Source: an uncultured Prochlorococcus sp. (GTDB lineage: Bacteria; Cyanobacteriota; Cyanobacteriia; PCC-6307; Cyanobiaceae). From it: a DNA stretch of 64,000 bases. The stretch spans positions 124,001 through 188,000 of the forward strand of contig CACOMD010000001.1 of the NCBI GenBank assembly GCA_902628235.1, written 5' to 3'. How positions within the stretch are numbered: the first letter of the stretch is position 1; each line of letters opens with the position of its first letter. The notes under the pieces were generated by a model. That model saw nothing but the letters and a program-made list of their open reading frames with translations. It had not been told where the DNA came from and ran no database searches. Shown in pieces: positions 787 through 45,703 of this stretch. The position numbers and the translations under genes were made by a program.

Positions 787-981
787 TTAATTATTGAATA
801 TTTATCACAATACTTTAATCATAAATAATAACTACATAAAATAAGCATTTTAAAAATGAATTGGAAAATATATAAAGTTACAAACCTTAGAAAAAGTTTC
901 CTTAATAGAAATAAATTTTTTGATATTCTCTGAAATAAATTAAGCAGTACTCTCTAATCCTCCAACAGAAAGGTCTTTGAT

Positions 982-1332
982 GTAAATCAGCATAAACACT
1001 GATTTACTAAATAATATGCAAAGTATTAAATTGTATTCATTGAGTTGGAGGCAATCTTTTTATGATTGAAAGTCCGCCTGAAATTTAGTGTATTCCCGAG
1101 AAAGGGAATATCTTGATAACTAAAGTTCATCAATTAGTCTGATAAGACTTCGTTTTATAATTACTAACGATATCAGGACAAAATACAATCGAGATTTTCC
1201 CTATGAACTTGCTTTTAAAGATCATGATTAAGTGAACTTTAAAAAGAAAAAGCAACGCTTTTAATAAGCAAATACTATTTCAAATTGATTCTAAAGAAGA
1301 GGACTGATAAAATCAGTTCTCTTTTTTTTTTT
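982..1332 (+). ncRNA. Candidate structured non-coding RNA ending in an intrinsic terminator (5' end uncertain)
   Basis: No long ORF. Perfect stems: GTAAATCAG/CTGATTTAC (982-1007), TATTCCC/GGGAATA (1091-1110), AGTCT/AGACT (1136-1149), long-range AAGTTCAT/ATGAACTT (about 1124-1131 with 1203-1210), AAAAGC/GCTTTT (about 1247-1261), then a terminator. Confidence 0.5.
1303..1332 (+). terminator. Rho-independent terminator
   Basis: AGAGGACTGATAAAATCAGTTCTCT followed by an uninterrupted T tract; no T tract on the other strand. Confidence 0.8.
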
Positions 1333-1400
1333 AAAGTAAAATGTTATTTCTTCAAATTTTAATGATATAAAAATTTATATTTTTCTAACAATCTGCAAAA

Positions 1401-2588
1401 TTATGTTTTTGTCATTACTCTATTAATTTCCCAACAACTTATATCGAAACTACAATATTTATTTAAAGCTTTTTCAGCTAGACATTTACCTATTAGTGGT
1501 GCAAATTTGAATGATTGACCTGAACCTCCTGAAAAAACAGTAATATTTGGCTTAGGTTTATCAAGAATAAAATTCACATCGCTAGTCATTGTATAGGGGC
1601 TTACAAAAGTTTCATCACAGGCTATTACGCCATTTATATTATTTAAAATAAAATCATCCAGCATTTGTTTCAAAGGATCCATAAAAGGATTTTCCATTGA
1701 CTTGTTATCTATTCCAATAATATTTGGTGGGGCCCAGTCTATTCCAACTTTTATTCTTGGGATATCATTTTTATTTCTACTTAATACAGGGAAGCCGTAA
1801 TATAGTCCGCCATCATCATTCTTTGATTTTTGAAAACAAAACCATTGAGGATAACTATTTATAAATTTTTCTTCAACCAAATAATGAGCCCAAAGCATTG
1901 GCCATATTTTAATGTCAAGCTTTAATCCTATATTTTCCAATAGCTCGTTGGTCCACATACCAGAAGCTACAATTAATTGTTCAAAAGCAACAGAATTATT
2001 TTCAATAATTTCAAGTTGATTATCTTTTTCATTAATTTTTTTTATTCTGCAATCTTCAAATATTTGATTACCATTTCTTTTTATAATTTGTATCCAATTA
2101 TCGATAGCTTTATCACTTAGAATTGCACCTGCGCTTGGTTCAAATAGACCTACAAAATGGTCTTTAGGTTTAATAGGAAATCTTTTTGAGATCTTTTCTG
2201 AAGAGAGAAACTCATATGGAATGTTCTGTTCATCCATGACTTTTTGAGCTCCAGGAATAGAACCTTCAATGGTTTCTTCATCCCAAGATTCCCCATAAAA
2301 CAATAAACCATGCTCCTTCCTGAGAGGTTTATTTGATAATGATTCTTGCTTTGACCATAATTTATTTGATTCTTTTGCAAGTTTACAAAGAACAGGATCT
2401 GAGTACATTTCTCTATACATTCTTGACTCACCGAAACTACTTCCATTAGCGTTAGCAAGTTTTTGAGCTTCAAATAAAGCAATATTTTTTATTCCCATTT
2501 CACTTAGTGCGGCTGCAGCACTGAGGCCAGCCATCCCACCACCAATAATTGCTATATCTACATGTTTTGGAATACTAAGATTATTCAT
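1401..2588 (-). CDS. FAD-dependent amine/amino-acid oxidase, monomeric sarcosine oxidase/N-methyltryptophan oxidase-like (DAO superfamily)
   Basis: N-terminal GGGMAGLSAA Rossmann motif; GSSFGESRMYREMYSDPVLCKLAKESNKLW; C-terminal YTMTSDVNFILD and FSGGSGQSFKFAPLIGK. Confidence 0.8.
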   Translation of the reverse strand: MNNLSIPKHVDIAIIGGGMAGLSAAAALSEMGIKNIALFEAQKLANANGSSFGESRMYREMYSDPVLCKLAKESNKLWSKQESLSNKPLRKEHGLLFYGESWDEETIEGSIPGAQKVMDEQNIPYEFLSSEKISKRFPIKPKDHFVGLFEPSAGAILSDKAIDNWIQIIKRNGNQIFEDCRIKKINEKDNQLEIIENNSVAFEQLIVASGMWTNELLENIGLKLDIKIWPMLWAHYLVEEKFINSYPQWFCFQKSKNDDGGLYYGFPVLSRNKNDIPRIKVGIDWAPPNIIGIDNKSMENPFMDPLKQMLDDFILNNINGVIACDETFVSPYTMTSDVNFILDKPKPNITVFSGGSGQSFKFAPLIGKCLAEKALNKYCSFDISCWEINRVMTKT

Positions 2589-3637
2589 TAATTGAAAAAT
2601 GACTTACCTATTATTTCTTGTCTATCATTTTGCATTAGACTTAAAATTTCTTTAGATTCTAAACCACTTTGTTCAAGAGATAAATAGGTAAAACATTTCT
2701 TTCTAACTTCCTCTTGCACGAAATTATAAACTTTTTCAGGAGAGGTTCTAGTCCATGCATCAGGGGCATATTTCTCAATAGAGTCAGCAATTACTGCACC
2801 TGCATTAACAAGTGGATCAGGAATTATAACAACATTTGAATCTGTAAGTTTTGCAGGAATTACATCATTACTAAAAGGTCCATTAGCGGCTGAAATAATC
2901 GCTTTGGTTTTAAGAAGGAATTGAGCAATATTTGTACTTATAAGACCTGAAATAGAGCATGGAAATATTACATCAAAATTCTTTCGATACCAATTCTTAT
3001 CATTTCCAAGTGATATTACTCCAGGTATATTTGTCCTTTCAGTATCAATATCAACTACAAAAGTTTTTATTTTTCTTTTAACAAGTTCTGAAGCAACAAT
3101 TCGTCCAACCGATCCGCATCCATGAACCAGAACTCCATCGGTGAAATCTTGCGAAAAACATTTTTGAAATGCTTCAAACGCTCCAATAACACCCATACCA
3201 GTTGCTGTACTCGCATCAACCCTACTATTAATAGCTGCTAAAACATGAGGAGTTAGTTTAAATAATTTCTCCATATCATTTATATTCGTATTCAAATCAC
3301 ATCCTGTAATCATCTTCCCCTGAAGATTTTCAAGAAGTTTAGATGTTATAGATATAAGTTTATCTTTGACGGAAGAAATATCCGCAGATCTAGCAACAAC
3401 TTTTCCACCCGAAAAACCAGTAGCGTAAATGCTATGCTTACTCTTCATGAGATTTGCTAATTTAAAACCATCCTGGATACATTCCATATCTGTTTCATAA
3501 TTAAGAAGTCTTAATCCTCCATTAGCCGGATGATCTTCAAGATTATTTTCTGCCACTATAAAAATAGATAATTCCTCACTGATATATTCGGCAAGTATAC
3601 CAACTTCACTTTTCTGTTGAGTCTGTAAATTAACCAT
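2588..3637 (-). CDS. Glu/Leu/Phe/Val-type dehydrogenase-like protein
   Basis: Lys motif ATGFSGGKVVAR, Rossmann VHGCGSVGRIVASEL, AANGP/NAGAVI. Start placed at internal ATG 3637 because it overlaps the upstream stop (TAATG); the track start at 3685 is less likely. Confidence 0.75.
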   Translation of the reverse strand: MVNLQTQQKSEVGILAEYISEELSIFIVAENNLEDHPANGGLRLLNYETDMECIQDGFKLANLMKSKHSIYATGFSGGKVVARSADISSVKDKLISITSKLLENLQGKMITGCDLNTNINDMEKLFKLTPHVLAAINSRVDASTATGMGVIGAFEAFQKCFSQDFTDGVLVHGCGSVGRIVASELVKRKIKTFVVDIDTERTNIPGVISLGNDKNWYRKNFDVIFPCSISGLISTNIAQFLLKTKAIISAANGPFSNDVIPAKLTDSNVVIIPDPLVNAGAVIADSIEKYAPDAWTRTSPEKVYNFVQEEVRKKCFTYLSLEQSGLESKEILSLMQNDRQEIIGKSFFN

Positions 3638-4689
3638 TAAACTCTCTCCATCATTAGGTGATGTTCTACATAATCGAGACTCCAATTTTCAGGATCGTTA
3701 CTAATTCTTTTTGTTAAGCGATGAAAAAGTGTATCAACTGGATTTAAGTTTGTATGACTATTTTTATCCAAAGCAGAAACAAAGCTATGCCTACTCCAGC
3801 TTCTTATCGTTTCCATTAATCCAATTGCGAACTCTTCCGTATTTTTATTTTCTTTCCACTTTTTCTTATATGGGCAATCTACATATACGGTTCTTTCCTT
3901 AATTAGTCTTAAACCTTTTTTATATGCTGAAGAATCCTTATTAATTAAAGGTGAAATAAATTCTTCTGGAGACTTATAAAAATTCTGGATGGTACCTTTT
4001 TGATACTCAGCTTCTGTAATGAGTTTTTCTTCTAATAACTCTTTCCAAATAGAATGAATTTCATCATGAACATTCACTGTCTTACCACCATTATTTCCTA
4101 AATATCTATTTTCATTATCTCTAGATAAATTAACTGTAAGTAGTTTGCCACCAATTTTAAGCTCTTTACTTCTAATATCTAGGATTTGATTCCAGTCAAA
4201 TAATGCTTGCTTCAAAAAATCATTTCTTGCTGTTTGATTACTTGAAGCAAGTACATGCGTATGATCATTAAGATTTTCAACCTTTTTATTAAGCCAATGC
4301 ATAGCAGTAGCTGAGAATCCAAAATCTATAAATTCAGAAGGAACAAGCTGATCATAAAAACTACCTGCACATAAAAAAGTCTTTACTAATTTATTATTAT
4401 TAGATTGGATTGATAAATTATTAATTAAAGCCTGATTATCATTTGAATAAAGATCATTTCCTATCAAAGTAATCTCAGTAGATTTATTATTTTCTTGTAT
4501 ATTATTTATTATCTTCCCCCAAAATTCAGAAGCCGTGCCACCATCGGCAGCGCCATAATCCATTAAAAATACATTTTCACTTATATCTATATCAGAAATA
4601 CATTCTGCACCCCAGTCACTTGCAAGATCAATACAGAGCTTAGCACCAGCTGTCTGCTCGCTGTAGCCCTTGGTCATTGCTATAGCCAT
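3637..4689 (-). CDS. SABATH-like SAM-dependent carboxyl methyltransferase
   Basis: LMDYGAADGGTASEFW SAM motif, FGFSATAMHWLNKK motif, overall length and layout of the SABATH family. Confidence 0.75.
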   Translation of the reverse strand: MAIAMTKGYSEQTAGAKLCIDLASDWGAECISDIDISENVFLMDYGAADGGTASEFWGKIINNIQENNKSTEITLIGNDLYSNDNQALINNLSIQSNNNKLVKTFLCAGSFYDQLVPSEFIDFGFSATAMHWLNKKVENLNDHTHVLASSNQTARNDFLKQALFDWNQILDIRSKELKIGGKLLTVNLSRDNENRYLGNNGGKTVNVHDEIHSIWKELLEEKLITEAEYQKGTIQNFYKSPEEFISPLINKDSSAYKKGLRLIKERTVYVDCPYKKKWKENKNTEEFAIGLMETIRSWSRHSFVSALDKNSHTNLNPVDTLFHRLTKRISNDPENWSLDYVEHHLMMERV

Positions 4690-14230: not shown

Positions 14231-14374
14231 TTGAACAAATTTATACTAACTCACAAAAGATTGATTTCCTGGTATCAAAAGAAATTGAGATTAAGTGATT
14301 ATGCTTTACTTTGGTTCGTTTTTTTCAAAGGTGCATTGACTGCGATAATTATTGAAAAAATATTTTTTAATTAA
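14231..14374 (+). CDS. 47-aa membrane protein (TTG start)
   Basis: LNKFILTHKRLISWYQKKLRLSDYALLWFVFFKGALTAIIIEKIFFN*. Confidence 0.4.
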   Translation: MNKFILTHKRLISWYQKKLRLSDYALLWFVFFKGALTAIIIEKIFFN

Positions 14375-14461
14375 TATTTAAATATAATTTATAAGATACT
14401 AATAGCTTCTTAAGTATATTTATCAAATATCTAATATATAATCAAAAAAAAGCTTTTCATT

Positions 14462-14701
14462 ATGAATATTTTTGGAGTAGGCTTACCTGAAGTTACAGTT
14501 ATACTTGTACTTGCACTACTCATATTTGGTCCTAAAAAACTTCCAGAACTAGGGAAACAGCTTGGAAAAACTCTTCAAAGCCTTAAAAATGCTTCCAACG
14601 AATTTCAAAAGGAATTAAATAATGCAGTTAATGAACCTGAGAATTTTAAAACTAAAAATATGAGTGAAAAAAATGAAGCCGAAGATACAAAAAAAAATTA
14701 A
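14462..14701 (+). CDS. tatA: Twin-arginine translocase subunit TatA/E
   Basis: MNIFGVGLPEVTVILVLALLIFGPKKLPELGKQLGKTL. Confidence 0.92.
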   Translation: MNIFGVGLPEVTVILVLALLIFGPKKLPELGKQLGKTLQSLKNASNEFQKELNNAVNEPENFKTKNMSEKNEAEDTKKN

Positions 14702-45601: not shown

Positions 45602-45703
45602 AATTAAGCATATTAAAGTGTAGAATATAAAAAATTTAGTGTATTTATACGGCAGGCTGAATACACCTCTTTCTCACTACCTAAGGTAGACTGCTTAAAA
45701 CAA

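Follow-up and report, generated by a model that had tools for sequence, protein, structure and literature searches.

A short conserved ORF and a shared upstream palindrome suggest that Yfr8 of Prochlorococcus belongs to a co-regulated family of tiny translated RNAs

What is encoded by an intergenic region that is dense in stem-loops, holds no long open reading frame and ends in a terminator on the strand opposite to the flanking genes is the question raised by positions 960-1335 of the DNA analyzed here, a 64,000-nucleotide stretch from an uncultured Prochlorococcus sp. (the window). The original prediction considered this region a candidate for a novel structured non-coding RNA, while allowing that it could be one of the described Yfr RNAs, and it is the latter suggestion that proved correct. 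A covariance-model search with Rfam matched RF02360 (Yfr8/Yfr9) to 1039-1243 of the minus strand over the full model (1-226), with 80 bits against a gathering threshold of 40, which refutes the novelty of the RNA. RF02360, though named Yfr8, models the strand that was called Yfr9 in the original paper: in MED4 the model matches 339952-340177 of the minus strand, and the positions given in the main text of that paper are 339952..340241 on the forward strand for Yfr8 and complement(339887..340176) for Yfr9 (Steglich et al., 2008, PMC2518516). The genome used here as MED4 (G152) is taken to be that strain on the basis of its exact agreement with the coordinates published for Yfr8, Yfr11, Yfr16 and Yfr19. 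Because RF02360 lies on the Yfr9 strand, the plus-strand RNA of the window with its terminator near 1332 is Yfr8, and the region is, by homology, the Yfr8 gene, the ortholog of an RNA verified in MED4 by Northern analysis and RACE.

The ends of the RNA in the window are set by homology with MED4 Yfr8 and by the position of the terminator, which aligns with the terminator of MED4 Yfr8, and give a length of about 294 nt compared with the 290 nt mapped in MED4, the one strain for which the main text of the 2008 study documents detection of the transcript (Northern/RNA-seq; PMC2518516). The window copy has in common with the Yfr8/Yfr9 loci of other strains the orthologous position, an RNA on the 290-nt scale, the terminator, the head-to-head layout and the genes of genomic island 1. 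It differs from them in its score (80 bits vs 235-265) and in the absence of a 21-nt insert that follows the mini-ORF described below in most HL strains. A plus-strand match to SpF25 in the same Rfam search was below threshold and is regarded as AT-rich chance, and a cyanophage origin was rejected, since neither a search of 50,697 phage records nor two scans of viral contigs yielded a copy. Two copies of Yfr8, separated by 12.5 kb, are present in the close relative G309 (L085:1828-2032 and 14355-14559). The adjoining genes of the window form a minus-strand cluster of three (1401-4689), encoding a DAO-family FAD oxidoreductase, an ELFV dehydrogenase and a SAM-dependent carboxyl methyltransferase (PF03492), and this cluster is common to relatives in the same island by synteny.

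That a structured RNA is transcribed from the plus strand and ends near 1332, as had been proposed, is supported by covariation as well as by the mapped 290-nt RNA of MED4 described in the main text of PMC2518516. The individual stems and the T-tract terminator were all found where they had been predicted (982-990/999-1007, 1091-1097/1104-1110 and 1123-1130/1203-1210 among them), and the terminator stem at 1293-1327 with its T tract occurs once, against 0.1 expected in shuffled sequences. Relative to shuffles, folding is strong for the plus strand over 960-1335 (z = -5.59) and over the RNA itself, 1039-1332 (z = -4.88), and weaker for the minus strand over 960-1243 (z = -2.88). A consensus structure was derived from an alignment of 22 divergent homologues, and the compensatory changes for which covariation analysis had been recommended are present on the plus strand: the Yfr8-strand consensus has 54 pairs, 19 of them with changes on both sides, and an energy of -40.4 kcal/mol with a covariation term of -4.26, whereas the minus strand of the same DNA yields 32 pairs, 6 of them doubly changed, with -23.3 and -0.85. 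On the Yfr8 strand 97.1% of cells are paired and 0/500 shuffles reach the observed values on any measure, a comparison that is inflated by the relatedness of the sequences; sliding destroys the pairing signal on this strand. G-U pairs of the plus strand become broken A-C on the minus strand, most clearly in the terminator helix. Covariation and folding thus favor the plus strand and point to selection for structure on Yfr8.

Not all of the predicted stems belong to this consensus. The 8-bp pair AAGTTCAT/ATGAACTT and the stem at 1247-1261 are present in the window but lie outside the 22-sequence consensus, and in place of the 1091-1110 hairpin the consensus has a long-range pairing in which its GGGAA segment takes part. 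The stem at 982-1007 is also genuine, but homologues place it outside the RNA, as an upstream DNA element that is shared with other genes and is considered below. The features of the locus are collected in the following table.

Table. Positions in the window of the Yfr8 gene, its parts and its antisense counterpart
Feature	Position	Strand	Basis and remarks
Yfr8 RNA	1039..1332	+	Homology to MED4 Yfr8, terminator, covariation, folding
Palindromic element about 30 nt upstream of the RNA; candidate transcription factor site or part of a promoter	982..1007 (core 985-1007, AATCAGCATAAACACTGATTTAC)	+	Shared across the family
5' hairpin pairing the Shine-Dalgarno sequence with the mini-ORF, group A only	1039..1089	+	z -2.53; helices 1-3 almost invariant
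Shine-Dalgarno sequence GGAGG, perfect	1047..1051	+	Pattern, homologues
Mini-ORF of eight codons, ATG ATT GAA AGT CCG CCT GAA ATT TAG (MIESPPEI, stop)	1062..1088	+	Conservation
Conserved long-range helix GGGAA	1104-1108 with 1197-1201 (1104..1201)	+	Consensus helix 4
Invariant hairpin AGTCT-GATA-AGACT	1136..1149	+	Stem search, consensus
Hairpin TCGTT/AACGA, compensated TCGCT/AGCGA in other clades	1150..1170	+	Helix 6
Long irregular hairpin with the most covariation	1209..1249	+	Helix 7; 8/13 pairs changed on both sides
Intrinsic Yfr8 terminator	1293..1332	+	Helix 9; 6/11 pairs with double changes
Counterpart of antisense RNA Yfr9	960..1243	-	Promoter box and terminator T tract unrecognisable; 40-44 aa ORF absent

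A riboswitch or leader serving a neighboring gene would also be a structured plus-strand RNA, and the 3' part of the region does match the L20 leader (RF00558) at 1238-1336 with 34.9 bits; this score is below the gathering threshold of 58.7 in AT-rich sequence, and because the next downstream gene lies on the opposite strand (1401-2588, minus) a leader is refuted in the window by gene orientation, leaving it a negligible probability. Far from this locus, at 45616-45697 of the plus strand, the window carries a match to the Cyano-S1 ribosomal protein leader (RF03151, 45.1 bits).

A second account of the locus centers on the other strand. In the main text of their paper Steglich et al. suggested a type I toxin-antitoxin system, in which a toxic peptide encoded by Yfr9 is countered by Yfr8 as the antisense antitoxin, and reported both that the two MED4 RNAs overlap head-to-head and that Yfr9 rises early in phage infection, along with frameshifts in the proposed 40-44 aa Yfr9 frame (PMC2518516). 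A Yfr9 peptide was rejected in the present comparison as well, since the frame is not conserved and is absent or shifted in many homologues, the window among them. MED4 has a TATAAT before the Yfr9 start, whereas in the window and its nearest relatives (L026-L029) this start lacks a TATAAT-like box and the 982-1007 hairpin is not followed by a T tract. The antisense partner looks degraded in the clade of the window, which nevertheless keeps Yfr8, the RNA favored by structural selection. Because the Yfr9 signals are unrecognisable in this clade and its ORF is not conserved, the toxin-antitoxin proposal is lowered to a very improbable one.

The statement that the region holds no convincing ORF is valid for long ORFs but overlooks the eight-codon ORF at 1062-1088, which is preceded by a strong Shine-Dalgarno sequence, and the designation of the RNA as purely non-coding is unsupported given the conservation of both at its 5' end. 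In Yfr8, Yfr11 and Yfr16 of MED4 the Shine-Dalgarno sequence sits 8-9 nt from the 5' end of the RNA. It is intact, together with the ORF, in 62/62 distinct copies of Yfr8 (group A), at spacings of 8, 9, 10 or 11 nt from the ATG; these copies were collected with the Shine-Dalgarno and ATG pattern, although loci L001-L054 had initially been identified through similarity in sequence or to Rfam. Neither a Shine-Dalgarno sequence nor ribosome binding is mentioned in the main text of PMC2518516, supplements aside, and a literature search for 'MIDSPPE' and 'MIDSLPEIS' found no published mention of either.

The same Shine-Dalgarno sequence and a MIDS(P/L)PE start occur in Yfr11, in Yfr16, in a short Yfr11-like RNA and in an RNA without an Rfam match. 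A degenerate pattern for the Shine-Dalgarno sequence plus ORF recovers further copies from almost all genomes of the genus (the reversed control gave 0 there, and one match in 300 genomes of the family), which fall into three further RNA groups with in-frame MIDSPPEK/E/N... or M[IV]DSLPE.... MED4 has four copies, of which Yfr8, Yfr11 and Yfr16 contain one each, and the fourth, at 979907, belongs to the RNA without an Rfam match (group B). In a scan of one genome per species over 84,980 species there were at least 119 matching stretches, and among the matches listed 116 are from Prochlorococcus or picocyanobacterial single-cell genomes; those in Nitrospinaceae, a Eubacterium MAG and Alkalicaulis (L249, L330, L336) were judged to be chance.

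The group B RNA, about 310 nt long, has a terminator and a structure with covarying pairs, and its mini-ORFs read MIDSLPEISE, MVDSLPEIS or MIDSLPAISE before the stop. It is present in nearly all genomes of the genus, including that of the window (L090:686-1000, G000:C23) and MED4 (G152:C1:979884-980211), and has a hairpin loop AAGGATCNATGATTTAGGTGC; a second ORF within it (ATGTCTAA...) was dismissed on inspection of the alignment as it is frameshifted between clades. Group C comprises Yfr11 and Yfr16, with the mini-ORF MIDSPPEKFIRLV and a stop, and C' is a shorter, Yfr11-like relative in most other HL genomes (MIDSPPEELNYKI and a stop; L196-L234, e.g., G300:C1:695206), for which the one copy scored reaches 34.5 bits with RF02363, below its gathering threshold of 44. 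Yfr11 and Yfr16 resemble Yfr8 in the position of the Shine-Dalgarno sequence, the MIDSPPE start and a palindrome at equal distance upstream of the mapped 5' end, and differ from it in a longer mini-ORF (12-13 aa) and another RNA body (138-149 nt); the RF02363 covariance model has no match in the window, so that the upstream element, Shine-Dalgarno sequence and mini-ORF are all that is common to them. Tandem C copies 405 bases apart, at L351:758 and L351:1163, read MIESPPENL and MIDSPPENL before the stop. Two C copies in the genome G419 were reached through the AACAAGGATC hairpin, which is another part of the RNA, and the mini-ORF there is therefore no product of the search pattern. A divergent copy in the genome of the window (group D, L090:4295, MDCNPPEYLQKK...) adjoins a match to Yfr10; in this paralogue (L090:4207-4735) a 26-codon ORF lies directly upstream of the Yfr10 match, and G309 has an orthologue (L381).

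It might be argued that Yfr8 is an ordinary structured sRNA acting purely as RNA, with its ORF-like 5' end serving as a base-pairing or protein-binding module. Group A copies indeed hardly vary at the 5' end, where the Shine-Dalgarno sequence is paired in the fold, and MED4 Yfr8 is long-lived, with a decay of 19.7 min (PMC2897979). Between groups, however, third codon positions change while the amino acids stay: groups A and C have four differences in codons 2-7, of which 4/4 are synonymous, and over A, B, C and C' 6/7 changes are synonymous, with P from 2e-5 to 1.5e-3 depending on the assumptions, the upper value being conditioned on codon positions fixed by the search pattern and all of these values resting on few codons because the mini-ORF is very short. 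The frame is also kept among homologues while the spacer and the position of the stop vary. A shared hairpin around the Shine-Dalgarno sequence was rejected as the cause of the conserved mini-ORF, as it folds in group A only; the 5' ends of B and C fold no better than shuffles, and the group A hairpin thus does not explain the shared peptide. On balance a purely RNA-based role seems unlikely, and Yfr8 is a candidate for a translated, dual-function sRNA, whose translation we infer from the conserved Shine-Dalgarno sequence and ORF with their bias to synonymous change. The dual-function sRNAs SgrS/SgrT and RNAIII likewise combine a structured regulatory RNA with a short ORF close to its 5' end. 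The ORFs there have 26-43 codons as opposed to 8-13 here, where the ORF is common to several RNAs with different bodies.

If the mini-ORFs are translated, their products could be functional peptides of 8-13 aa that act outside the RNA, and the conservation of the N-terminal heptapeptide MIDS(P/L)PE in several RNAs per genome would fit this view. The residues after position 7 nonetheless drift freely within one group (EELNYKI, KSNNKI, KLK, NLNKINLL), and the same peptide is found with at least four conserved RNA bodies. The drift beyond codon 7 is the reason for preferring ribosome passage to a longer peptide product, and independently acting peptides are rather less probable than an untranslated sRNA.

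The palindrome upstream of these RNAs has the form AAATC(A/G)GCAT-N4-AC-N-(G/C)AT(T/A)TAC in A, C, C' and D and is weaker in B, and in all groups it ends 38-41 nt before the Shine-Dalgarno sequence. In MED4 the distance from its end to the 5' end mapped by RACE is 30 nt for each of Yfr8, Yfr11 and Yfr16 and 29 nt for Yfr19. A pattern search found one to four palindromes per genome over ten genomes and 0 in the reversed control. Yfr19 (RF02366) follows the element (L377:1501-1523, with an RF02366 match; MED4 1086192-1086214), and inspection revealed no Shine-Dalgarno sequence or mini-ORF downstream of it; at 82 nt and with an unrelated body, Yfr19 is linked to the others by the palindrome and by published co-regulation with Yfr11 and Yfr16. 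These three RNAs were grouped by expression in the main text of PMC2518516, being lowered by light and raised by DCMU, and Yfr8 itself is absent from the light/DCMU-regulated set reported there. Another palindrome (L382:1501-1523) lies between divergently oriented small ORFs, one of 60 aa (MIIMYFLDFQMRSIISWLSKMLESMANAF...). Within 950-1040 of the window neither the RpaB HLR1 motif (with up to 3 mismatches) nor the NtcA consensus GTA-N8-TAC was found, and comparison by eye showed no match of the element to the PedR motif RWWTRGGYNNYY (PMC13421787). In most HL genomes a T tract follows the palindrome on the minus strand, so that the palindrome could serve there as the Yfr9 terminator, which counts against its being an operator.

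The reading that we favor, with a probability of roughly two in three, is that Yfr8 is one of a family of short, translated RNAs that differ in their bodies and are under light/redox control, for which we infer both the translation and the regulator from sequence comparison. A candidate light/redox-responsive factor would act at the palindrome and control all members together, and each RNA would be translated at its 5' mini-ORF, gated in Yfr8 by the hairpin that hides the Shine-Dalgarno sequence. What is selected would be the passage of the ribosome over codons 1-7 (MIDSPPE), which may tune the stability or folding of the structured body; this body would be the effector, and Yfr9 a dispensable antisense partner. 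Pro-Pro-Glu is an established slow, EF-P-dependent context and suggests ribosome pausing; group B has Leu-Pro in place of Pro-Pro, which weakens the case for a universal polyproline stall and makes pausing a hypothesis only. A broader version, put forward tentatively and at somewhat less than even odds, is that each HL Prochlorococcus genome encodes a family of three to five short RNAs that are regulated together through a common operator (Yfr8, the Yfr11/16-like RNAs, the unannotated B RNA and, by its promoter only, Yfr19), all of which but Yfr19 share a translated M-I-D-S-P/L-P-E mini-ORF before different structured bodies, such that the mini-ORF might be a common translational sensor or ribosome-loading device that couples several light/redox-controlled sRNAs to the state of translation.

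In Prochlorococcus, the most abundant phototroph in the ocean, the Yfr RNAs have since 2008 been catalogued as non-coding and of unknown function. What is new, from comparison over hundreds of genomes, is that Yfr8 has a conserved eight-codon ORF and a putative control element, both of them found with other 'non-coding' RNAs as well. This points to a family of tiny translated RNAs under common regulation and argues against the toxin-antitoxin interpretation of Yfr8/Yfr9. If this is true, several Yfr RNAs would form one regulon, linked by their shared operator and shared translated start, their annotation would be corrected, and their function would become testable as the work of one factor and one translation event.
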